In this document: positions 1,047-55,695 of the stretch, piece by piece | Layout: each line of letters starts with the position of its first letter | Numbering within the stretch: position 1 is the first letter of the stretch | Source of the DNA: a virus | Strand: one strand, 5' to 3' | DNA: 62,444 nucleotides | Virus record (IMG/VR): IMGVR_UViG_3300042503_001282 | Location: 1-62,444 of that record | Position numbers and translations under genes: made by a program | Notes under the pieces: model-generated | Database searches by the model: none | What the model was told of the DNA's origin: nothing | The model's input: the letters and a program-made list of their open reading frames with translations, nothing else

Positions 1047-1065
1047 TACACTCCTTGATGTAGTA

Positions 1066-1174
1066 AGTAGCGCATCCTGAAAACAAAGCTACTGGAACTG
1101 CGCTCACACCAGCCCCCTCGTGTGAGTGTTAAATGCCCCGCAGGGTATAATTGGGTAAAACCAATGAGGGGGCT
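1066..1174 (+). ncRNA. Candidate structured RNA with H-type pseudoknot
   Basis: Several helices fit together. AGTAGC 1066-1071 pairs with GCTACT 1088-1093. CTCACAC 1103-1109 pairs with GTGTGAG 1120-1126, leaving a ten-base loop. Nine bases of that loop (AGCCCCCTC, 1111-1119) are an exact complement of GAGGGGGCT at 1166-1174. The linker holds two small hairpins, the second being ATTGG 1150-1154 with CCAAT 1161-1165, directly abutting the last helix. Together this is the connectivity of an H-type pseudoknot. No long open frame needs this stretch. It could be a cis-regulatory RNA for the gene at 1338 or a separate small RNA. Family unknown. Confidence 0.5.
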
Positions 1175-1207
1175 TCTTTCTCGTGACTGAATCTTTGTTG
1201 CCATTAA

Positions 1208-1268
1208 GCCCTTCATGGTGACACTGCACGAGACTGTTTGGGGAAGCACACTCGAAGGGCACTTTTTT
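1208..1268 (+). terminator. Terminator-like hairpin with T tract
   Basis: GCCCTTC at 1208-1214 pairs with GAAGGGC at 1254-1260. ACTTTTTT follows at 1261-1268. The 39-base loop is long for a plain intrinsic terminator, so the loop may fold further or the element may be switchable together with the pseudoknot just upstream. Confidence 0.5.
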
Positions 1269-1272
1269 CATA

Positions 1273-1301
1273 TTGCTTGAGTCTTGCAGAGATCGTATAG
1301 C
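1273..1301 (+). promoter_or_regulatory. Weak promoter candidate before 1338
   Basis: TTGCTT at 1273-1278, a 17-base spacer and TATAGC at 1296-1301. The match is only moderate. It would restart transcription after the terminator-like hairpin and reach the gene at 1338 with a leader of about 30 bases containing AGGTAGG. Confidence 0.3.
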
Positions 1302-1337
1302 TGAACTGTAGTAGGTTTTAGCTATCACAGGTAGGTT

Positions 1338-2931: not shown

Positions 2932-2968
2932 TAGAATCTCGTAAAAATACGAGGTGAACCTATCAAAT

Positions 2969-2993
2969 GGCTAAGTAGCTGTTTTACTTAGCC
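2969..2993 (+). terminator. Hairpin after 2785 gene, no T tract
   Basis: A perfect 9-bp stem, GGCTAAGTA with TACTTAGCC, and a 7-base loop. No T tract follows, so this may be an RNA-stabilising or protein-bound hairpin rather than a classic terminator. Confidence 0.4.
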
Positions 2994-3023
2994 CAAATAA
3001 TACCCTCCAGGTGGATTCTGTAG

Positions 3024-3053
3024 TTGACAATATCCACAAATATCTGTTATACT
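3024..3053 (+). promoter_or_regulatory. Strong extended -10 promoter
   Basis: TTGACA at 3024-3029, an 18-base spacer and TATACT at 3048-3053 preceded by TGT, giving an extended -10. Transcription would start near 3060, 22 bases before the ATG at 3082. It probably drives the operon 3082-4478 and possibly the metalloprotease gene beyond. Confidence 0.75.
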
Positions 3054-4494: not shown

Positions 4495-5799
4495 ATGAAA
4501 AAAGCACTTGCCCGTTCCATTCTTGGAACACTGTTCATTCTTTTCCTTGTTGGTCGTCCAGTTGATGCCATCGTCAGTGGCGTTCTTGGGTTGCGGAATG
4601 ATCCTAGCTCGTCAGCTTCCATAGCCGAGACCCTGAACAAACCAGCTCTAATTAAATTAAAAGATAATAAAAGAGTCAATATCATTTTTTTAACTGCGAA
4701 GAGAAATGCGCCTGTTGGTCCAGAGTCCGTGTTCCTGCAAGGTAGGGTAGTGTACAGGCGTCGAGAATATCCGGTTGCCGCTGCGATCATAGACGGAAAG
4801 ATGAGAGTCACGTTCCCGAGTGTACCAAGAGGCAGTAAATTATCTCGGCAGAGAATTAATACTCTCACAATATCAAAGAATGGAACTGGAAGGTTAGCAA
4901 GTGTTCCAGTTTCAGTTGCTCACGCGAGGACCTGTGCCAATCACGCAGAACATTCCGAAAGTCCGCCCACTGTGATGGCTCTCAACGAAGGTATGCCTTC
5001 GAACCTGTCTCACGTGGTGACACTGCATACGTATGCCGATCAAGAATGGATTGCAAAGTACGGCGCTCGCTCGAATGAAGAGATCATCAGTATCATAAAC
5101 ACTGCTGAAGCTATCTACACTCGTCAGTTGGGGATTCGATTCCGCATCGTGGGTCAGAACAGCTACTACACACTAGAAACAGACCCATCGAAGATGCTGC
5201 GACAAATTCAGTCTGATGCATCAACACAGAACGACAATACAGATCTGAAGCACCTCTTCACTGGGAAAGATATGGACAGCACCACGGTTGGACTCGCATA
5301 TGTTGGCACCGTATGTGCATATCCAAACTGGGCGTACGGCATCACACAACAGTACTATACTCTCACGCCGTTTATTTTTGCACACGAGATCGGACACAAC
5401 TTTAATGCAAACCATACGTACACGGGGCTCATGGCGCCGTACATCTCAGCACAGTCATCGAGTGGGTTCTCTGATTTCAGTCTCAACCAGATCAATAATC
5501 ACCTGAACTATTTCGGGTCGTGCTTGTCACTTGAAGCTACGATGCCGAACCTTGCAACGTCACGCATCACAATATCGTACAGTAACAAGATCATCACCGG
5601 AAAGCTGGTCGACATTTCGGGTAAGCCGTTGCCGAACCAGAAGATCATCATAACACTCAACAGGAGGAAACAGACAGTACGCACAAACGCCCAAGGTCAA
5701 TTCAGAACGAGAGTGGTCGTGAGAGGGAAATACACGGCTAAAGCATCCACGGCAGGGGGAGAAAAAACGTCTAGGTCTATTTCATTCACAGTACGATGA
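4495..5799 (+). CDS. Secreted zinc metalloprotease (metzincin-like), 434 aa
   Basis: A Sec signal peptide spans about residues 1-25 (MKK, hydrophobic core, then VDA). A propeptide-like stretch follows to about 150. The catalytic domain contains HEIGHNFNANH at 297-307: H297, H301 and H307 would bind zinc and E298 is the general base. GLM with M313 fits a Met-turn close behind. These features match metzincins of the reprolysin/M12 type. The last ~80 residues (from about 355) look like an Ig or carboxypeptidase-regulatory beta domain. The product should leave the cytoplasm of the infected cell. I know of no T4-like structural role for such an enzyme; it could act on host surface or extracellular proteins at release. 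No strong ribosome binding site precedes the ATG, but the signal peptide fixes the start. Confidence 0.85.
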   Translation: MKKALARSILGTLFILFLVGRPVDAIVSGVLGLRNDPSSSASIAETLNKPALIKLKDNKRVNIIFLTAKRNAPVGPESVFLQGRVVYRRREYPVAAAIIDGKMRVTFPSVPRGSKLSRQRINTLTISKNGTGRLASVPVSVAHARTCANHAEHSESPPTVMALNEGMPSNLSHVVTLHTYADQEWIAKYGARSNEEIISIINTAEAIYTRQLGIRFRIVGQNSYYTLETDPSKMLRQIQSDASTQNDNTDLKHLFTGKDMDSTTVGLAYVGTVCAYPNWAYGITQQYYTLTPFIFAHEIGHNFNANHTYTGLMAPYISAQSSSGFSDFSLNQINNHLNYFGSCLSLEATMPNLATSRITISYSNKIITGKLVDISGKPLPNQKIIITLNRRKQTVRTNAQGQFRTRVVVRGKYTAKASTAGGEKTSRSISFTVR

Positions 5800-25907: not shown

Positions 25908-28900
25908 ATGACAAAAATAGATCTGAGCACACCACCATACTTCGACGATTTCAACGAGAACAAAAAGTTTTACAAGATTCTCTTTCGTCCAGGTCGAGCA
26001 GTTCAAACTCGTGAGTTGAACCAGCTTCAAAGCATATTACAGAATCAGATTTCACGTCTTGGTGGATTCAAGCAAGGTGATATTGTACACCCAGAAAACA
26101 CACTAGGTGTTCGTTTCTTCAACACAACTGTTTTTGCTAAAGTACCTAGAACAGAAGAAAGCCTTACCGCAACAACAAGTCAGCTCGACATGTACTGGCT
26201 CAACAAGACAGTCGAAAGCGAGTTTGGCGTAAAGGGTATCGTTTCTGGATACAGTCTCTCTACTTCGGGCGACAATACAGTTCGTCTATTCATCGATTTG
26301 ACCGAAGCATCGAAGACAACTGGTAGAAACAATTTTGGTAAGAACCAAACCATCAAAACCCAAACCGACATCGACAGTACAATCTCAGTCACTATCGAGA
26401 ACTCACAGTACGCTGTTGGTCGAATCTGCAAAATCAAGATACCGAAGAGCATCTACTACTTCAATGAGTACTTTGTGCTTGTTGATGAGCAAACTCTTTT
26501 CTTAGAGCCAGACAATAAGACTGATGACTCTGCATGGAATACTTACGTCACATGTGAGGTTGGCATAAAGATGGTTGAGAGCATTGTCAACCATTCAAAC
26601 GATCCGTCACTGTATGACAACGCAACCGGCACACCAAACTATGGTGGAATTGGTGCAGACAGATTGCGTATTGAAGGTACTCTTGTAAAACGACCAAACA
26701 ACACCATCGAACAGAACTTCATCAAGCTTCTTGTTCTTCAGAATGGTGCTGTTACTGATGCACCACTCATAAGCAAAGAGTCTCTTGGTCTCACAAGTGA
26801 TGCTGATGCTCGACGTACCTATGAAGAGTCGGGCAACTATACCATTACACCATTCATCGCAGAAGCGAGAGAGTTCTTAGACAACGACAACGGTAACAGA
26901 GGTATTTTTTCTGAACTGAACGACCTCTCTTTTGGTTGGTCTGAAGAAGATGCAATCAATGAAGACATCGCACGTGAGAATGCAGCTAAAGTTGCATTAG
27001 ATGTGTTTAAGCTTAATCCTCCACAGACAGTATTGCACAACAATCGCTACTACCCTGGTACGAGCTATGATGATGTGACTGATGCAACCTCATTCAAGAA
27101 TCTTTGCGATTCGATGATTGGTGTTCAGGTTGAGCCGGGTAAGGCATACGTATATGGATATCCAGTAACACGAGTTGGTGCATCAAAGATTGGTGTTAAG
27201 AAAGCTAGAACATCTGACATTCAACCTTCGAGAAAGATTGAGACTCCAATTGGAAACTACATTCTCATCACGAATGTTTTCGGAGCGCCAGAGTTAAACA
27301 CATCAACATGGGCATACGATGATGTTGAGCTTCACTCAAAGATATTAGACTTGAGTGTGAACCGACCAGCAATTCCATCTGATGACACCAAGATTGGTAC
27401 AGCACGAATCTCTACCATAGGACTTCAGAGTGGCTTTCATGGCTCTAAGAATGCTGTATACCAATTAGCATTTTTTGATATGACTCTTGCTGAAGGGTAT
27501 GAGTACTCTGACATAAAGTCTATCTCTTCTGCTTCAAAGTCATCTGAGGGTAAGACTTTCTTAGCAAACCTTTTACTGAAAGATGTTGAGAAGTACCCAT
27601 CACTCAAGTTTGAGGGTACGATTGAAGCAATAGCAAATCCATACTCATTAACATCGTCTGATGCTATAATTTCAATATTGGACGATAGAAAGGGTCTTAA
27701 TCTTGACTTTTCCACAATAGCAGCACGAGAAGATGCTTTTAACGCACTCTCTATCGGCACATGCATCAAGGTCAACAGTGGTCTTCTCTCAGCTATAGTC
27801 ACTGATTTGAGAAAGATCGATACTGCAAGCGACATCACTGCAACATCTGACAGCGAAACATTCACAACAGTGGCAAATCAAGTTGCTATTACTTTAGAGA
27901 ATGTGCCAGTCATAGACAACCTATTCAAAATTTTTGTTGATGCATCGACAACCCCTCTTGCATCGATAGTATCTGTCAGTGCAGAGACGCCATCAGGCAC
28001 AATTAACGGCACCAACTCAACTTTCACATTAGATAATACACCAATCGAAATTCAAACTGATCGAGTCACAGTAGAGATTTCTGATGAGACTTTGGTGGGT
28101 GATGTAAATGGCGTCAATCGTGCGTTCACCATATCAAATACTGCTATCAACTCGGCTGTAATTTTAACCAAATCTACAGATAATGGTGTTACATTCACGA
28201 CAGTTAGTCCAGATGACTATACCGTATCTGGATCAAAGATAACATTCAAAGTTGTCAATGGTGTCAGTAAAGCACCAGCATCAGGACAAATCATTCGTGC
28301 CAAGTATCTCACAAACATTTACTCTGCAAATGGAAAGAACATTCTTCTTTCAATGCCACCTGCTTCTGGCAGCTCGCTTGCAGTGAACTATAAGTACTAC
28401 AACTACGTAGTCAACAACAAAGAGATAACATTCGCAGAAGCATTCGCAACCGGAACAACAATCAAAGTTGACTACACATATCTCAACAAGAGACGATTAG
28501 AAGTTCGTCTCGACACAACCATCACAGAATCTTCAGTGAGCAGATTAAAGGTTGCGAGAAAGGTGCGAGGTGTCGGCACTTCTTGGAAGAGCAGCACAGG
28601 TCAGTTCTTAGAAAAGGGTGATTGGGTCAAGATTGGTACTGGCGATACAGCTAAAATCTATCAAGTACACTCAACACCAGCAAATGATAATGAGTTGAAT
28701 CTTGATCCAGATCCACTTGAGAAGCAAGTAATAAACGGTCAAGAGGTTCTTGTAAACGCACCTTGGACAAATGGTGCGAAGATGATTTACCTCACCGCAG
28801 AAGCTGTTCGTGAAACATCGAGCGATGCTAATGCAGGTCTTCTCTATAAGCTTCCTCATTCTTATATCAGAACCATTCGTGGTGGTACTAAGAACAACCC

Positions 28901-31900
28901 AGACAGTAGCATCATAGCAACCACATATGAGAGTCGGCATTTTGAAGTGAGATCAGCTAACGGGGGTAACATAATCATCTCAGCAAGAGAGAATGAGTAC
29001 TTTCCATCATTTTCAAACTTATACTATCTCGTCGATCTCGATACCGGATATTGGTTTCAGCTCTTTGGTCCAGACACAACTCCTGAAGATGCTATCGGTG
29101 AGATGGACCCAGATAGACCAGAAACATTCACAGCACGTGTTGTCGTAAACACAAATGCTGATGAAGATGGTGGATCAAACGTCACTTTTCAAACAAACCC
29201 AGATGCAGAGACGAGAAAGTTTGCTATCTGTGTTCCTGTAATCAAGTCATCTTCTGCTGCACGAGAAGCTTCGAAGTCTCTAGTAAAAGGAACTTTTGAA
29301 AATGACATTTACTCAGGACCAGCAGTTGTTATCGACACCGATGCTGTCACCGAAATATCTTTAGGTAAAGCTGATGCACTTCGTATCACTCGTATTGTAT
29401 GTGCTGATGATGGTGGTAAGTATTCTGCAACACCAACAAACAAGTACTTTGAAGGTCCAAGTTTCACCGAAGATGGTGTCGTACACAAAGACATCACCGG
29501 CGCTTACTTGTTCGATAATGGACAAACAGATCACTACTACGGAATTGCAAAAGTTACTCTTCGCCCTGGATTCCCAATACCACAAGGGCAAGTTCGAGTA
29601 GAGTTTGATTATTTCAACCACACCGGAACTGGTGCTCTCTCTAACTACTTCTCTGTCGATTCATACACAGGCTCTGGCGTTTCATACGACGATATTCCAG
29701 AATACACGTCACCGAACGGCGTGGTGTTCGATCTTAAAGAGTGCTTAGACTTCAGACCAAGAGTAAATGATACAAGTGTATCTGAGATTCTGGGACAAAA
29801 GAACTTCGAGTTCTACAAAGAGATTCCACTCGGTAGTGTCACTTGCACCTACCATGTATATGAAGGCAGAAAAGACAGACTATACCTATCGAAAGATGGC
29901 GACATTCTCATCAAAGAAGGTACACCAGGTCTGAATGCTTCAACTCCATCTGAAGCTGACGATGGCATGACTCTTTACAAGGTGAACATTGAACCGTACA
30001 CAAGTACAGCACGTTCATGTACTCTTGAGATGATTGACAACAAGCGATATACGATGCGAGACATCGGCAAGCTTGAGAAGCGAATCAAGAACCTAGAAAA
30101 TGTTACCTCTCTGTCATTCTTAGAAAAAGACACCAAAGAACTTGTCATCAAAGATGCGCTCGGTCAAGACAAGTTCAAGCATGGCTTCATGACAGATACG
30201 TTTGAAAATCCATCGGTTGCTTCTATTAGTCATCCAGATTTCACAGCAGCATTCGACACTCGCATGAGTGAGTTGAAGCCTAGTGTAGAAAACTCACACG
30301 TTTCTATGATGGAAGCTGTGTTGATGCTTCAAGGTTCAACCACCCAAAGCACACTTCAGCTTCAAAACGACGAGCGAGAAGCTAGAAACTACACATCATC
30401 AAACAAAGATACACCAAACAAGAAGACCTCTCTATACACATTGAAATATGACCATGTGACTTTCATAGAGCAACCTCTCTGTAGTCGAGTGATCAACGTA
30501 AATCCATATGCTGTACAGAGTTTCGTTGGAAGTTTGAAGATCACTCCATGGACCGATACGTGGCGTGAAACAAAGGTTGCAGATCCTTTGATTGTGCAAG
30601 ATAGCACCGCATATGAGACTGCATTACGAAACTTCAACGGCAACTCATCACGAATTGATTGGGGTCTTACTGAACAACAGTGGACTGGAACATTTCAAGA
30701 AGACCCAGTTGAGAACGGCAAGCTTGAGTTCATCGAAGCATCTCTTCACTGGCCAGTAAAAGATGGCACATACCTCAAGAGAACTTGGAAGAGAGATGCA
30801 AACGGAAATAACGTAGAAACTTGGGTGTCACATCAGTATACCAAGAAAGAGCTTAAAGAGAAGGGTGGCTGGGCTAAGATTCCTGATGGATATCCTGGTG
30901 CTGGTCAGTACGTGAAGCTCTCTGCCGGTAATGCTAAGGTGCGAAAGGGATACAATGTAGTTCGTGGTACTACTGGTTTCGAATACCGAACTGGTGTCAA
31001 GAACACACTTGTTGATCTTGGCTTTAGTGATCCTGTTACAAGTCAAGAGCGAGTTGTAGACATCGCAGCAGCACAGTTCATTCGCTCAAATGAGATTCAG
31101 TATGAAGGTCGAGGGTTTTTCCCAAACACTAAGCTCTATGCTTACTTCGATGGTGTTGATGTAACTAACTACTGTTATCCAGATCCTGGGTTTGGAGAAG
31201 TTAGAGAAAATGCAGACAATACCATCTTCTCTGGTTCGGGTAAGTTTAAGTTTGATGCAACTTCTATCTCAACATCAGATGATTCGACGGTTCTCGCTGT
31301 AGCTGGATTGTCTTATGCAGAAATAGCAGACGTAAACAACAAGCTCGACTTCGCACTTCTCACAGGTGAAGTGACAACCGAAGGCACAACCCTCAAGGGT
31401 TCATACTCAAGCATAGAAGTTGTAAGCGGAGACTTGTCTAATTACTCTATAACTGAAGGTGACTTGCTTACTGGTCTTGCTGGTCAGGGTGTTGTAACTG
31501 ACGTTTCTGCGGACAAGAAGATTGTATACTTCAACAACACTGGCACAGACACATTCAACACAGTTCAAGACCAAATCACAATTACAAACAACAAGACGAT
31601 TGTTGTTAAAAAAGAGGTCTGCTCTGGTGATCCACGAGTTGATTCTATCTATACTCTTGCACACACGCCAATTCCGGGCACTGGTTCCAATTACCAGCCG
31701 TTGGTTGTGTACCTATATGACAAGACGAATAACATTCCACAAGAGATCAGTTCTACTCTATATACCATAACAGAAAATACGAATGTTATTCGATTCGTCA
31801 ATAACAAGTCGCCAGTCAGTCTCTATTTCCCTGGCGGTGCTCCAAACAATCAATATGAAATTCGTGTTGACTACGCATATGCAGGGTCAAACTACACAAT

Positions 31901-34900
31901 CGTCGATGAAATCGCAGTTCGTGATACCACCGACGCCACAAAGAAGACATACAAAACTAAACACACCATACTAAGAGGTACCAGACCAACAGTAAAAGTG
32001 AATGGTCTTGTAGTATCAGATTCTCAATTTGATTTCACACCGGAGTCAATTTACGTAACACTCACCGTTGCTCCAGGCGATAGTGATGTTGTGCGTATCA
32101 CATACACCACAGCAACTCAGGTGTTTGTTGGTAAACAAATCAACATCGGCACACTCTTCAAGACGGAGCTTATTCCAGGTTCTGTTGTTGTCTTCCCTAA
32201 TGGTGTTGAGAAAGAGATCGTTTCGATACAAGATAATGCAACCGCTACTATGAAGGCTGCGGTAAACGGCGACATCACAGCAAAGACACGATGTGCAGAC
32301 AAGCTCGAAGCACTTCAAACGAAGTTCATCGGCAAGTTTGTAGACATATCGGGTGCATCAAATCTTGACAGAAACATTCTGAACAAGAAGATCATCTCTC
32401 TTAGCTACACACCAGACTCTACGACGAAGTTGAAGTTCAATTTCCACTCGACTCTGATGATGCCTCCAATCGATATGGAAACTGTATCTCTTGTCGTCAA
32501 GAAGCAAGAGATTGGTAAAGATGCTAAGACAAGAAGCGTCACCCTTCAGTGTAATGAATCTGGAAAGATCAAGGGTCGTTTCTGCATACCTGACCCGAAC
32601 GTAGACGGAAACCCTAAGTTCAGAACAGGTGATAAAGCATTCAGACTCACAAACTCACAGAGAAATGAAAGTTTACCTAGTGTGTCACGTGCTGAAGCTG
32701 GCTACTCGGCAAATGGTTGGGTTGATACTAAGCAAGCTGAGATTAAGTCGATTCGTCAATTCAGAGTTGATCAACAAGCTGTATCTGGCGAAAGAACACC
32801 AATCACACTCAAGCAGGTATTTGAAGAATGGGGTCAGGTTTGTCCAGCAGATCCGATTGCTCAGAGCTTCACGGTATCAGACAAAGACGGCATATTCTTG
32901 ACTGCTATCGATGTGTTCTTCTACTCGAAAGACCCTGTGCTTCCAATTCGTCTTCAGATTCGTCCACTCGCTGATGGTGGAACGCCAAGCTCAACTCTCT
33001 TATATGAGAAGAGTATTGATGCGAACGAAGTTGTGATCAACAAGGTTGACTTGAAGACTCAGACAGTTACCGTTATTGGTGCAACGTCAGAAACAGCTCG
33101 AATTGGATTCAACAAGGGTCCATGGAACAAAAAAGAGACCGCAACAACGAATAGTATCTACACCGTAACATCATATGCATACGAGAAAGGTTTGTCATAT
33201 ACCACCATCGAAGATGGCAAACCTGTAGACTACTCTTTCGGCACAAACGAAGACATCAAGAATGCACATTCGTACATGATTCCTACACGATTTGTTTTTG
33301 ATTACCCAATCTACTTAGAGGGTAACAACAAGAACTATTGCTTCGTGTTGTTGACTAACAGTGTGCCACCAGCTCAAGCGGGTGGAGATATTTCTGTTCT
33401 TGAAGGTACATATCAAGCATACTTTGCTCAAACTGGTAAAGCAAATGAGCATCAAGAGCTTGCTACACCTGTACATAGACAGACTGTTCTTGAGCCAGGT
33501 GAAGATGATTTGAACTTCATCTTGGGTACAAACACACTCATCACTTCGATACCACAATCTGATGGACAATTATTCAAGTCACAGAACGGTATCAGTTGGG
33601 TTGGAGATCCTGTTGCCGACTTGAAGTACAAGATTCACAAAGCAAAATTCAACACCGATAGGTCTGCTGATATTGTGTTTGTGAATGAAGACTTAGACTA
33701 TACTCAGCTTGAGTTGAGTCCATTTGAGTCTCGAAAAGGTTCGTCTCTTGTTCGAGTGAACCACACAAATCATGGATTCACTGAAGGCAGTTTCGTATCA
33801 TTCACTGGTCTTGATGGCTACTTGAATGGAATCATGCCACAACAAATCATCAACAAAGACCACACTATTATATCTGCGGCGCTTGATAGCTATATCATCG
33901 ACCTTGGACCAGGTAATGAAGCTGCGGTGACTGGTAATTTTGGTGGTGCAAATGTTCTTGCATCTAAGAACATTCGTTTTGAAGAGATCATGGTGTTGAC
34001 AAGTCCACTCGAAGTTGCAGATACATCTGTAACATGGAGACTTTCATCGGTAACATCTGCTGCGCCAGATGATTCAGAAAGCACACCTTATCAGTTAGTG
34101 GAAAATATTCCATTATCATTGAACGCAAGTGTTCCTATGGATCAATCTCTTCAGGTATGTTCAGCTCGAAATGAACAGAAGATTACAAACCCAGAACAAA
34201 CAGAATGGGCGAAGAAATCTCTCAAGATTATTGCTACACTGTCGAGTAAGAATCCAAACATCTCGCCAGTTATTGATGCAGAGCGATTGGGTGTTGCACT
34301 CAAGACAGTTCGACTCAATAAGCCAGAAGGTGTTGGGTTTGAGAGAAACATCAACAATGAGGTGTTCGATACGTTCGTATGTTTACCGAGTGTGTTGCTC
34401 GATCAAAATACGATTTCTGGAAAGATATTCTTCTCAGACACCGACAACCAGATAACCGGAAGCTCATTCATTCTCAACAAGAAGACTATCACCGGAGTTG
34501 GAAGTCTGTTCACTGTCGAGTTGAAAGTTGGTGATAAGGTGAAGAACCCAACCAACAGTGAGACACGAACCATTGTTGATATTGCAAGCGATACTCAGTT
34601 GACGATTGACTCGCCGTTTAATGTGACTGAGGGTGCTAGTGAGATTGATCAGAAGGTAGATTACCTCACGTACAATCCAGCACGTTTGAAGATCAAGACC
34701 GCAGATAGACTCATAGCTGAGAGACTATCACAGCTTGAAGTTGGAAAATACGTATCACTCTCTGGTACACGAGATGCTGCAAGAGATTTCCATCAAGTGT
34801 TGGTGACGAACAAAGCATACACACCAAACACAACCGATATTGATCCACAGCTTGGTGCACCTAAGCTCTGTGAGATTGAGGTTGATCACTCGTTACCAAA

Positions 34901-35372
34901 CGATGTTGCTGCTGGTTTCGAGTTTGGTATGGTTGGTTCAACTCTGAGACTCACACAGCTCAACCAGTTCATTCACGATATTGGTATAGCGATGACATCA
35001 TCAGCATCGAAGTACATTTCTCGTGAGATGGTGCTTGCTAATCCAGCAAACACGATGAAGGTGCTCTTCGATGGTTGCAGACCACCAGGTGCTGAAATCG
35101 ATCTGTACTACAAGACACTTTCGAGGGATGAGAACATAGACATCTTCGAGAAGCCGTGGACAAAGCTTGAGTACAGCGTAGAGAATAACAGCATATTGAC
35201 GTTTGCTACGCCACCGAACAATGCTAACCACAAGTCGTTTAGTTCGTATGAAGCTAACGCATTGAATCTGCAACCGTTTGTAACACTTCAGGTTAAGGTT
35301 GTGTTGCGTGGTGCTGATGCAGCGATGTATCCAAAGATTCGAAACTTGAGAATCTTGGCTCTGGAGGAATAG
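25908..35372 (+). CDS. Giant DUF4815 baseplate/tail protein, 3154 aa
   Basis: The N-terminus carries the DUF4815 signature (FNENKKFYKILFRPGRAVQ, ELNQLQSILQNQI) of tail proteins from T4-like cyanophages and pelagiphages. Those are usually 1000-1500 aa; this one is far longer. Around residue 700 several beta units of the INGTNSTFTLDNTP type appear, shared in style with the fibres. Around 2310-2350 is a block PIAQSFTVSDKDGIFLTAIDV, and near 2555-2625 further tail-associated motifs (SQNGISWVGDPVADL, NHGFTEGSFV). The frame is open for 9465 bases without a stop. It lies where T4 has gp9/gp10, so it may combine several wedge and fibre-attachment parts in one chain. Structural role confident, exact position in the baseplate inferred. 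Confidence 0.85.
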   Translation: MTKIDLSTPPYFDDFNENKKFYKILFRPGRAVQTRELNQLQSILQNQISRLGGFKQGDIVHPENTLGVRFFNTTVFAKVPRTEESLTATTSQLDMYWLNKTVESEFGVKGIVSGYSLSTSGDNTVRLFIDLTEASKTTGRNNFGKNQTIKTQTDIDSTISVTIENSQYAVGRICKIKIPKSIYYFNEYFVLVDEQTLFLEPDNKTDDSAWNTYVTCEVGIKMVESIVNHSNDPSLYDNATGTPNYGGIGADRLRIEGTLVKRPNNTIEQNFIKLLVLQNGAVTDAPLISKESLGLTSDADARRTYEESGNYTITPFIAEAREFLDNDNGNRGIFSELNDLSFGWSEEDAINEDIARENAAKVALDVFKLNPPQTVLHNNRYYPGTSYDDVTDATSFKNLCDSMIGVQVEPGKAYVYGYPVTRVGASKIGVKKARTSDIQPSRKIETPIGNYILITNVFGAPELNTSTWAYDDVELHSKILDLSVNRPAIPSDDTKIGTARISTIGLQSGFHGSKNAVYQLAFFDMTLAEGYEYSDIKSISSASKSSEGKTFLANLLLKDVEKYPSLKFEGTIEAIANPYSLTSSDAIISILDDRKGLNLDFSTIAAREDAFNALSIGTCIKVNSGLLSAIVTDLRKIDTASDITATSDSETFTTVANQVAITLENVPVIDNLFKIFVDASTTPLASIVSVSAETPSGTINGTNSTFTLDNTPIEIQTDRVTVEISDETLVGDVNGVNRAFTISNTAINSAVILTKSTDNGVTFTTVSPDDYTVSGSKITFKVVNGVSKAPASGQIIRAKYLTNIYSANGKNILLSMPPASGSSLAVNYKYYNYVVNNKEITFAEAFATGTTIKVDYTYLNKRRLEVRLDTTITESSVSRLKVARKVRGVGTSWKSSTGQFLEKGDWVKIGTGDTAKIYQVHSTPANDNELNLDPDPLEKQVINGQEVLVNAPWTNGAKMIYLTAEAVRETSSDANAGLLYKLPHSYIRTIRGGTKNNPDSSIIATTYESRHFEVRSANGGNIIISARENEYFPSFSNLYYLVDLDTGYWFQLFGPDTTPEDAIGEMDPDRPETFTARVVVNTNADEDGGSNVTFQTNPDAETRKFAICVPVIKSSSAAREASKSLVKGTFENDIYSGPAVVIDTDAVTEISLGKADALRITRIVCADDGGKYSATPTNKYFEGPSFTEDGVVHKDITGAYLFDNGQTDHYYGIAKVTLRPGFPIPQGQVRVEFDYFNHTGTGALSNYFSVDSYTGSGVSYDDIPEYTSPNGVVFDLKECLDFRPRVNDTSVSEILGQKNFEFYKEIPLGSVTCTYHVYEGRKDRLYLSKDGDILIKEGTPGLNASTPSEADDGMTLYKVNIEPYTSTARSCTLEMIDNKRYTMRDIGKLEKRIKNLENVTSLSFLEKDTKELVIKDALGQDKFKHGFMTDTFENPSVASISHPDFTAAFDTRMSELKPSVENSHVSMMEAVLMLQGSTTQSTLQLQNDEREARNYTSSNKDTPNKKTSLYTLKYDHVTFIEQPLCSRVINVNPYAVQSFVGSLKITPWTDTWRETKVADPLIVQDSTAYETALRNFNGNSSRIDWGLTEQQWTGTFQEDPVENGKLEFIEASLHWPVKDGTYLKRTWKRDANGNNVETWVSHQYTKKELKEKGGWAKIPDGYPGAGQYVKLSAGNAKVRKGYNVVRGTTGFEYRTGVKNTLVDLGFSDPVTSQERVVDIAAAQFIRSNEIQYEGRGFFPNTKLYAYFDGVDVTNYCYPDPGFGEVRENADNTIFSGSGKFKFDATSISTSDDSTVLAVAGLSYAEIADVNNKLDFALLTGEVTTEGTTLKGSYSSIEVVSGDLSNYSITEGDLLTGLAGQGVVTDVSADKKIVYFNNTGTDTFNTVQDQITITNNKTIVVKKEVCSGDPRVDSIYTLAHTPIPGTGSNYQPLVVYLYDKTNNIPQEISSTLYTITENTNVIRFVNNKSPVSLYFPGGAPNNQYEIRVDYAYAGSNYTIVDEIAVRDTTDATKKTYKTKHTILRGTRPTVKVNGLVVSDSQFDFTPESIYVTLTVAPGDSDVVRITYTTATQVFVGKQINIGTLFKTELIPGSVVVFPNGVEKEIVSIQDNATATMKAAVNGDITAKTRCADKLEALQTKFIGKFVDISGASNLDRNILNKKIISLSYTPDSTTKLKFNFHSTLMMPPIDMETVSLVVKKQEIGKDAKTRSVTLQCNESGKIKGRFCIPDPNVDGNPKFRTGDKAFRLTNSQRNESLPSVSRAEAGYSANGWVDTKQAEIKSIRQFRVDQQAVSGERTPITLKQVFEEWGQVCPADPIAQSFTVSDKDGIFLTAIDVFFYSKDPVLPIRLQIRPLADGGTPSSTLLYEKSIDANEVVINKVDLKTQTVTVIGATSETARIGFNKGPWNKKETATTNSIYTVTSYAYEKGLSYTTIEDGKPVDYSFGTNEDIKNAHSYMIPTRFVFDYPIYLEGNNKNYCFVLLTNSVPPAQAGGDISVLEGTYQAYFAQTGKANEHQELATPVHRQTVLEPGEDDLNFILGTNTLITSIPQSDGQLFKSQNGISWVGDPVADLKYKIHKAKFNTDRSADIVFVNEDLDYTQLELSPFESRKGSSLVRVNHTNHGFTEGSFVSFTGLDGYLNGIMPQQIINKDHTIISAALDSYIIDLGPGNEAAVTGNFGGANVLASKNIRFEEIMVLTSPLEVADTSVTWRLSSVTSAAPDDSESTPYQLVENIPLSLNASVPMDQSLQVCSARNEQKITNPEQTEWAKKSLKIIATLSSKNPNISPVIDAERLGVALKTVRLNKPEGVGFERNINNEVFDTFVCLPSVLLDQNTISGKIFFSDTDNQITGSSFILNKKTITGVGSLFTVELKVGDKVKNPTNSETRTIVDIASDTQLTIDSPFNVTEGASEIDQKVDYLTYNPARLKIKTADRLIAERLSQLEVGKYVSLSGTRDAARDFHQVLVTNKAYTPNTTDIDPQLGAPKLCEIEVDHSLPNDVAAGFEFGMVGSTLRLTQLNQFIHDIGIAMTSSASKYISREMVLANPANTMKVLFDGCRPPGAEIDLYYKTLSRDENIDIFEKPWTKLEYSVENNSILTFATPPNNANHKSFSSYEANALNLQPFVTLQVKVVLRGADAAMYPKIRNLRILALEE

Positions 35373-53454: not shown

Positions 53455-55695
53455 ATGGGATTTCAAATTTCACCAGGCGTAGAATTCAGTGAAGTTGATT
53501 TAACTGGTATCATTCCAGCAGTATCAACCACCGATGGTGCATATGCAGGTGCGTTCCGTTGGGGACCACTTAACGACATTACTCTCGTAGGAACAGAGAA
53601 CGAACTTGTAGAAAAGTTTGGTAAGCCAAACTTAGACTTCCGCGTTTCTTTCTTCAGTGCAGCAAACTTTCTTGCATACGGCGACAAGCTTCGTGTAGTT
53701 CGTGTTGCTGATACTACCACTCACGTTGAGCGACAAGAAGGTGAGAACGAAGATGGCGACTTAGAAGCTTTCACAGTTCTTGACATCGACAGAACAAACA
53801 ACAAGTTGACTCTTGCTCAAAAGCTTACCGGCTACGACGATGCTGTAACTGGTGATGCAGTTCCTGCTGTTAAGCGTCTTGATAAGATCGATACTGGAAT
53901 CACTGGTTCTGAAGACCTTATCATCTTAGAAGTTGAAGATGAGAATACTGTAGAACTCAAGCCTCTTGTAAGTGGCGATTCTCCTATTCCTGACGATCTT
54001 GAAGTTGGTGATACTGTAGTCATCAAGTGCTATGCTGGTGCTGCTAATGCTACCGCAGACGGTCTCGGTGCTCTTATCAAGAATGACGAAGACTACCAGA
54101 ACAACTATGCATCAGGTCAAGCACGTGTTGGTGCATTTGCTTCGAAACATGCAGGTGAGCTTGGTAATTCTATTCGTGTCTCTTTGTGTGCTAGTTCTGC
54201 TGCATTCAGAACAACTTTAACACAACGATTCAACACGCAAGCTGATCCAGAGTGGATCAAGCCATCTGACAATGCATCTGACTTCTTGTCTCATATTGCT
54301 ATCAATTCATTGGTAGTAAATGAGCTTAACAACGAAGAGAAGATTGTCGTAGCAATCGATTCTGCAAACAAGATGTTTAAGGTAGATTCACCTTTCACAA
54401 CAGCTTTGAGCAACGCTACTCTTACAGTACGTTGGGAGTTTGCAGACTTGTTCTCACCACCAGGAACCAGCTCATTTGCTGCTGACAAAGGTGCACGTAA
54501 CGACGAGCTTCATGTTGTAGTTGTAGACGAGAACGGAGAAATTACCGGAACACCAGGTTTCGTTCTTGAGAAGTATGAGTTCTTATCAAAAGCTGTAAAT
54601 GCACGTTTGGATGGTGACTCTAACTATTACAAAGATGCTCTTAACAAATCACGCTATGTTCGATGGTGTGATCATCCGTTCTTCAACCAGACAGTAAACG
54701 GTTCTGATTGGGGTCTTGCAGCAGTTCGTGGCGTTAGCTTCGATTCTCCTACACGTCCATATTCAGTAGACCTTGCTGGTGGAAGTGATGGTAAGCGTAC
54801 CGCAGGTTTCGACGCTGCACGTAAAGATGGATACCGTTTGTTTGCTGATGCAGACAAGGTAGACGTTTCTCTCATCATCATGGGTGATGCAGCAGCTTGG
54901 TTGTGTTCTGATGTAGTTCAGAATGTAGCTGAGAAGCGCAGAGACTGTGTTGTGTTCATTTCGCCACCTCGTGCTGCGGTTGTAAACAATCCAGGCAACG
55001 AAGCGAAAGCATCTATCGCTTTCAGAACTCAGCTCGGTTTCAGCTCATCGTATGCTGTAATGGACAGCGGATGGAAGAAGCAGTTCGACAAGTACAACCC
55101 AAGTTCTGAGGATATGTGGGTTCCACTCAACGCAGATATTGCCGGTTTGTGTGTTCGTACTGACATGACGAATGATCCATGGTGGTCTCCTGCTGGTTTC
55201 AGCCGTGGTGGTATCAAGAACGTCATGAAGCTTGCTTACAGTCCATACAAAGCAGAGCGTGATGACTTGTACAAGAACAACATCAACCCTGTGATCGATC
55301 AGCCAGGTGAAGGTCGTGTTCTCTATGGTGATAAGACCATGTTGAGCAAGCCAAGTGCGTTTGATCGTATCAACGTAAGACGTTTGTTCATCGTTCTTGA
55401 GAAAGCTATTTCTCGTCAAGCTAAGTACTTACTGTTCGAGTTCAATGATGAGTTCACTCGTCAGCAGTTCAGAAGCATGGTTGAGCCATTCCTTCGTGAT
55501 GTACAGTCACGCCGAGGTATGTATGACTTCAGAGTTGTTTGTGACCGCACGAATAACACACCAGAAGTTATTGACCGTAACGAGTTTGTTGGAGACATCT
55601 ACATCAAACCAGCACGTTCGATCAACTTCATTCAACTGAACTTCGTCGCTGTCAGAACTGGCGTTGAGTTCTCTGAGATTGTTGGAAAAGTATAA
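53455..55695 (+). CDS. 18: Tail sheath protein gp18, 746 aa
   Basis: Begins ISPGVEFSEVDLT, then AGAFRWGPLNDITLV, LVEKFGKPN and GDKLRVVR, the typical gp18 N-terminal part. The C-terminal part (QAKYLLFEFNDEFTRQQFRS, FLRDVQSRRGMYDF) is the highly conserved sheath core. T4 gp18 is 659 aa; the surplus lies in the outer, variable domains. Strong ribosome binding site (AAGGAGA). It forms the contractile layer around the tube. Confidence 0.95.
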   Translation: MGFQISPGVEFSEVDLTGIIPAVSTTDGAYAGAFRWGPLNDITLVGTENELVEKFGKPNLDFRVSFFSAANFLAYGDKLRVVRVADTTTHVERQEGENEDGDLEAFTVLDIDRTNNKLTLAQKLTGYDDAVTGDAVPAVKRLDKIDTGITGSEDLIILEVEDENTVELKPLVSGDSPIPDDLEVGDTVVIKCYAGAANATADGLGALIKNDEDYQNNYASGQARVGAFASKHAGELGNSIRVSLCASSAAFRTTLTQRFNTQADPEWIKPSDNASDFLSHIAINSLVVNELNNEEKIVVAIDSANKMFKVDSPFTTALSNATLTVRWEFADLFSPPGTSSFAADKGARNDELHVVVVDENGEITGTPGFVLEKYEFLSKAVNARLDGDSNYYKDALNKSRYVRWCDHPFFNQTVNGSDWGLAAVRGVSFDSPTRPYSVDLAGGSDGKRTAGFDAARKDGYRLFADADKVDVSLIIMGDAAAWLCSDVVQNVAEKRRDCVVFISPPRAAVVNNPGNEAKASIAFRTQLGFSSSYAVMDSGWKKQFDKYNPSSEDMWVPLNADIAGLCVRTDMTNDPWWSPAGFSRGGIKNVMKLAYSPYKAERDDLYKNNINPVIDQPGEGRVLYGDKTMLSKPSAFDRINVRRLFIVLEKAISRQAKYLLFEFNDEFTRQQFRSMVEPFLRDVQSRRGMYDFRVVCDRTNNTPEVIDRNEFVGDIYIKPARSINFIQLNFVAVRTGVEFSEIVGKV

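Follow-up and report, generated by a model that had tools for sequence, protein, structure and literature searches.

The nearest known parallel to the RNA element described here is RydC, a small RNA of E. coli and Salmonella (RF00505). The E. coli RydC sequence used for comparison was confirmed by Rfam, and its connectivity was likewise confirmed: a 7-bp hairpin, nine loop bases paired downstream, and a U tail. The 3' part of the loop pairs with the downstream strand so that the last helix stands directly before the U tail, and a 5' segment is left exposed. The RydC pseudoknot is required for stability; in a pseudoknot mutant, for which a plain terminator hairpin is predicted, the half-life decreased from more than 32 min to about 2 min (PMC4337610). 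Pairing of a P2 loop with a downstream strand also occurs in the preQ1-II riboswitch (RF01054), which bears a hairpin, P4, in its last loop (PMC11625349); this RNA is located in the 5' UTR of queT, where it hides the ribosome-binding site. In the HMP-PP (thiS) riboswitch, a possible pseudoknot and an intrinsic terminator are built on the same strands (PMC6478431), and the pseudoknot excludes the terminator. The STAXI motif (RF01728), an enterobacterial RNA often with UUCG loops and found near DNA-handling genes, consists of two or three tandem pseudoknots (PMC2864571). Structured RNAs of T4-like phages include the manA motif, for which a pseudoknot was proposed and which occurs in potential 5' UTRs, and the wcaG motif, with an apparent role in the regulation of exopolysaccharide or high-light genes (PMC2864571).

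A related arrangement is present in a virus record of IMG/VR, analysed here over a 62.4-kb stretch of DNA, called the window. The window contains a T4-type contractile-tail module, whose sheath gene (53455-55695) has relatives across many T4-like phages, and no tRNA genes were found in it. The tail/baseplate module also includes a single ORF of 3154 aa (25908-35372). Elsewhere in this T4-like phage, positions 4495-5799 encode a 434-aa reprolysin-like (M12) metallopeptidase with a carboxypeptidase-regulatory-like C-terminal domain, and GGTCCGGAAGTTTT occurs twice, about 100 bases apart (2625-2755), with a short inverted repeat beside each copy, in the region separating the leftward genes from the rightward gene that follows. 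The RNA element sits between two small plus-strand genes of unrecognised family, directly 3' of the stop codon of a 90-aa ORF (774-1046) and upstream of a 71-aa ORF (1338-1553). The reading preferred here, with moderate confidence, is that the element constitutes a pseudoknotted 3' UTR/transcription terminator of the 90-aa gene.

On the plus strand, the element begins with a 14-nt leader, TACACTCCTTGATG (1047-1060), invariant in the three phages that carry it and predicted to be single-stranded. The hairpin P1, AGTAGC/GCTACT, follows (1066-1093, arms 1066-1071/1088-1093), its counterpart at the same place in the relatives being a hairpin of other sequence, AGTAAAG/CTTTACT. A preliminary description of this DNA had noticed a 7-bp hairpin with nine of its ten loop bases complementary to a strand further downstream, and both features proved exact. 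The arms (1103-1109/1120-1126) extend to a 9-bp stem, P2 (1101-1128, arms 1101-1109/1120-1128), which is paired at nine of nine positions in the three phages and encloses a 10-nt loop (1110-1119). The complementarity of this loop (1111-1119/1166-1174) includes a conserved helix of 8 bp, S2, GCCCCCTC/GAGGGGGC (1112-1173, strands 1112-1119/1166-1173), invariant in the three phages and with a duplex energy of -17.0 kcal/mol. At the junction of this first pseudoknot (PK1), loop 1 has 2 nt and loop 2 is absent. Loop 3 holds the hairpin P3, ATTGG/CCAAT (1150-1165), directly 5' of the 3' strand of S2, and a further small hairpin, TGCCC/GGGTA (1134-1147), which the alignment places as an insertion in the window only, with a gap in both relatives. 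A T-rich tract, TTCTTTCTC (1174-1182), broken by a C in the window, ends PK1, and T-rich tails follow PK1 in both relatives as well. The nested minimum-energy fold of the element is unremarkable (z -1.1), because a nested fold cannot hold both helices.

Further downstream, the preliminary description had placed a terminator-like hairpin (1208-1268). Its components, GCCCTTC (1208-1214), GAAGGGC (1254-1260) and a T run (1263-1268), are indeed present, so that the helix and the T tract stand; the scan for H-type pseudoknots described below shows, however, that they belong to a second pseudoknot (PK2) of the same design, and that a T tract follows each pseudoknot. The P2 stem of PK2 has 9 bp (1196-1223, arms 1196-1204/1215-1223) and the loop TAAGCCCTTC, loop 1 is TAA, and the S2 helix, GCCCTTC/GAAGGGC (1208-1260), has a duplex energy of -11.3 kcal/mol and is followed by the tract ACTTTTTT (1261-1268). 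PK1 and PK2 have this design in common but share no sequence and are not direct repeats. The unit is doubled in two of the three phages: one relative (L002) carries another pseudoknot where PK2 lies in the window, and the other (L003) has a single copy.

H-type pseudoknots with a T-rich tail were searched for on both strands of the window and the two relatives, 188 kb in all. Five strong matches were obtained, with scores from 37 to 46.5, all immediately 3' of the 90-aa gene; the window has two (PK1 at 1101, 46.5; PK2 at 1196, 37), L002 two and L003 one. The best of the remaining matches in the 188 kb scored 28.5, and the highest score in 14 first-order Markov controls, each as long as the window, was 31.5. 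The same five matches still ranked first when the T-tail filter was removed, the next one scoring 35, and a T-rich tail, whose base rate is 9%, follows all five pseudoknots. Other phage DNA (816 kb) contained one weak match (32.5) with both helices of at least 7 bp, and some GC-rich matches scored up to 39 with a first stem of only 5-6 bp. This DNA included parts of the T4-like phages Melnitz, DLP_6 and OspM_OC (194 kb), in which no comparable pseudoknot was found.

The two relatives are the only other IMG/VR contigs in which the 90-aa gene was found, alignment-based searches included. INPHARED contained no homologue of this gene, giving one weak partial protein match, and a genome collection of 85k species yielded no further homologue. 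The 90-aa protein is 83% identical in L002 and 78% in L003; it is predicted to consist of helices followed by two strands and could be a small winged helix, according to a model of low confidence (pLDDT 63) whose fold has no significant match in the PDB. The downstream genes are also retained, the 71-aa protein with identities of 35% (L002) and 56% (L003), and both relatives show the same order of invariant leader TACACTCCTTGATG, P1 hairpin, linker, pseudoknot and T tract. Homologous phages thus keep the pairing together with the flanking genes, and a conserved protein across the stretch, which would have offered another explanation, was not found. Protein coding was rejected: the antisense ORF at 767-1249 faces the conserved 90-aa gene, and none of the leader's 14 positions varies, a pattern unlike the conservation of coding sequence. 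The 17-mer TAATACACTCCTTGATG recurs in two further contigs, only inside coding sequence (RecA/UvsX-like by inspection), and was taken as a chance match.

When the three phages are aligned, every one of the 66 pair cells in P2, S2 and P3 holds a standard pair. Compensatory changes had been predicted for the loop helix (1111-1119/1166-1174), but this helix does not vary, and hence does not covary, among the three orthologues; the changes lie instead in its partner stem and in the loop-3 hairpin. In P2, both sides changed at four pairs and one side at a fifth; in P3, double-sided changes affect two of five pairs in the relatives. Pairing falls to 39-55% when the partners are slid against each other, and a shuffle control gave 2 of 500, a figure that with three sequences is supportive and is not to be read as a probability. 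A G-U pair of P2 is retained in all three phages, which points to RNA rather than to a DNA palindrome. Among IMG/VR loci with GCCCCCTC...GAGGGGGC arms and a T tract, a P2 of at least 7 bp occurs solely at the locus of the element itself. Scan, Markov controls and conservation all bear out the H-type pseudoknot first proposed, and it is very probable that this structure is formed and selected.

The element begins 0 nt past the stop codon of the 90-aa gene in all three phages, and its distance to the next start codon varies (54, 83 and 164 nt). This combination of fixed and variable spacing suggests a 3' UTR/terminator of the upstream gene. On the emerging RNA, the P2 hairpin would form first and leave its C-rich loop exposed; the G-rich strand, made last, would pair with that loop, and the new helix of 7-8 bp, abutting the U-rich tract, would act as the terminator stem. 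The finished pseudoknot would provide a compact 3' end that should withstand degradation, so that the element may both terminate transcription and protect the transcript, and the doubled unit of the window and L002 could be a fail-safe or two-step terminator. In folding predictions, P2 has a probability of 0.95-1.00 in nascent prefixes ending before the last strand, and the L002 prefix, folded unprompted, gives exactly the leader (unpaired), P1, the linker and P2. S2 duplex energies range from -11 to -17 kcal/mol. From general pseudoknot geometry, the junction sizes (2-3 nt in loop 1, spanning 7-8 bp, 0 nt in loop 2 and 18-37 nt in loop 3) are compatible with both helices forming at once.

In all five copies a G+C-rich helix runs straight into a U-rich tract, as in intrinsic terminators, and the same GC-rich S2 arms followed by a T tract recur widely among phage terminators. 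The local short-loop hairpin of such terminators is lacking: 46-52 bases lie between the S2 strands in the window, and the hairpin loop strand of S2 belongs to P2. A consensus terminator scan misses all the pseudoknot copies. The leader, P1 and P3 exceed the needs of a bare terminator. In each of the three phages, the stretch from the T tracts to the 71-aa gene showed no recognisable sigma-70-like promoter; this gene is thus likely to depend on read-through or on a phage-specific promoter, and would fall silent if termination were complete. Ordinary hairpins are found a few hundred to 1,500 bases downstream (window about 2966-3053, L002 6893-6978, L003 6402-6487), clearly a terminator in L002 and L003 and followed by a promoter-like TTGAC(A/G)-17/18-(T/G)ATACT; plain terminators hence serve beside the pseudoknotted ones.

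The preliminary description had left the choice between a switch for the gene at 1338 and a free small RNA. Of these, the switch gained no positive evidence, and a 3' UTR or small RNA fits better. A RydC-like phage small RNA derived from the 3' UTR, with the leader UACACUCCUUGAUG recognising targets and the pseudoknot as a stabilising 3' module ending in U's, is nevertheless unlikely. The layout of RydC, an exposed 5' seed followed by a pseudoknot and a U tail, is matched, and the leader, predicted to be unpaired, is identical in the three phages where the adjoining ORF is only 72-75% identical. The leader, which contains the anti-Shine-Dalgarno-like CUCCUU, might, with similarly modest probability, be the targeting segment of such an RNA; yet, when it was tried as a seed against the translation starts of the three phages (233 in all), its complementarity was no better than that of shuffled leaders, and no promoter or processing site for a small RNA was identified. 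The absence of a recognisable promoter before the 71-aa gene, with the read-through it makes likely, keeps alive another reading, an intercistronic switch (a riboswitch or protein-bound attenuator) in which a ligand or protein bound to the pseudoknots controls either read-through to the 71-aa gene or its translation. Its connectivity with a loop-3 hairpin would be that of preQ1-II, the thiS/HMP-PP switch offers a precedent for fusing aptamer and terminator, and the last S2 strand of L002, GAGGGGGC, is located a short way upstream of the start codon and could be its ribosome-binding site. Such a switch is unlikely given that the position of the element is fixed relative to the upstream gene and not to the downstream start, that PK2 is missing in L003, that the associated genes are not metabolic, and that neither an Rfam riboswitch match nor an alternative antiterminator pairing was identified. 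Quite unlikely too is a phage RNA switch of a new class, made of two serial pseudoknots, each both sensor and terminator, in which a ligand or phage protein bound to the leader, P1 or P3 part would set read-through to the next gene.

S2 and its T tract, taken alone, fit a loose definition of an intrinsic terminator, and many unrelated phage terminators have identical arms. The element could accordingly be an ordinary terminator with a long loop in which P2 is incidental, but this is very improbable: P2 is preserved through compensatory change in the three phages, both second copies also have it in the same geometry at the junction, and the other phages with identical S2 arms have ordinary terminators from which P2 is absent. 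The succession of tandem pseudoknots, T tract and small ORF also resembles the toxI-terminator-toxN order (PMC5086642) of type III toxin-antitoxin systems, in which repeats of a pseudoknotted antitoxin precede a terminator and a toxin gene. This interpretation can be given almost no credence, as PK1 and PK2 lack the direct sequence repeats and each has its own T tract, L003 has one copy only, and no ToxN/CptN/TenpN-like endoribonuclease was found, the 71-aa product matching no Pfam, PHROGs or PADLOC model and its predicted fold having no significant match in the PDB.

If the element is a pseudoknotted terminator, programs that seek local hairpins would miss or misread terminators closed in this way. 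The terms "pseudoknot terminator" and "pseudoknotted terminator" were not found in the literature searched, which mostly excluded subscription journals and is weak evidence of absence. A conserved and duplicated case among T4-like phages would speak for repeated use of the RydC arrangement to end and protect a transcript, and the locus would provide a small system for comparing a pseudoknot with a plain hairpin in termination, stability and regulation.

The initial impression that the RNA matches no known class agrees with the Rfam search of the whole window, which gave no match. Rfam 15 riboswitch and RNA models, run on the element and both relatives, at permissive thresholds too, produced no credible match, and the RydC covariance model (RF00505, curated cut-off) found nothing in the window, the E. 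coli control being positive. The element thus differs from STAXI, manA and wcaG, sharing with the first its tandem pseudoknots and with the others their occurrence in T4-like phages, and, unlike manA and wcaG, it lies directly after a gene. It resembles preQ1-II in its pairing pattern but has a T tract after the last strand and a location behind a gene. In contrast to the HMP-PP riboswitch, the pseudoknot helix is here itself the putative terminator stem. As regards RydC, the leader and the bases next to it (1047-1063, CUCCUUGAUGUAG) are similar to its 5' end, CUUCCGAUGUAG, a likeness that L003 breaks and that is thus probably due to chance. RydC has a loop 1 of 6 nt, a loop 2 of 1 nt and a loop 3 of 7 nt without a hairpin, and occurs as a single copy in a gene of its own, whereas the phage element has a shorter loop 1, no loop 2, a longer loop 3 (with a hairpin in PK1), an additional P1, tandem copies and a position immediately behind an ORF. 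With RydC it shares the architecture of a hairpin loop paired downstream and a U tail after that helix; it is a new RNA family of an architectural kind already known.
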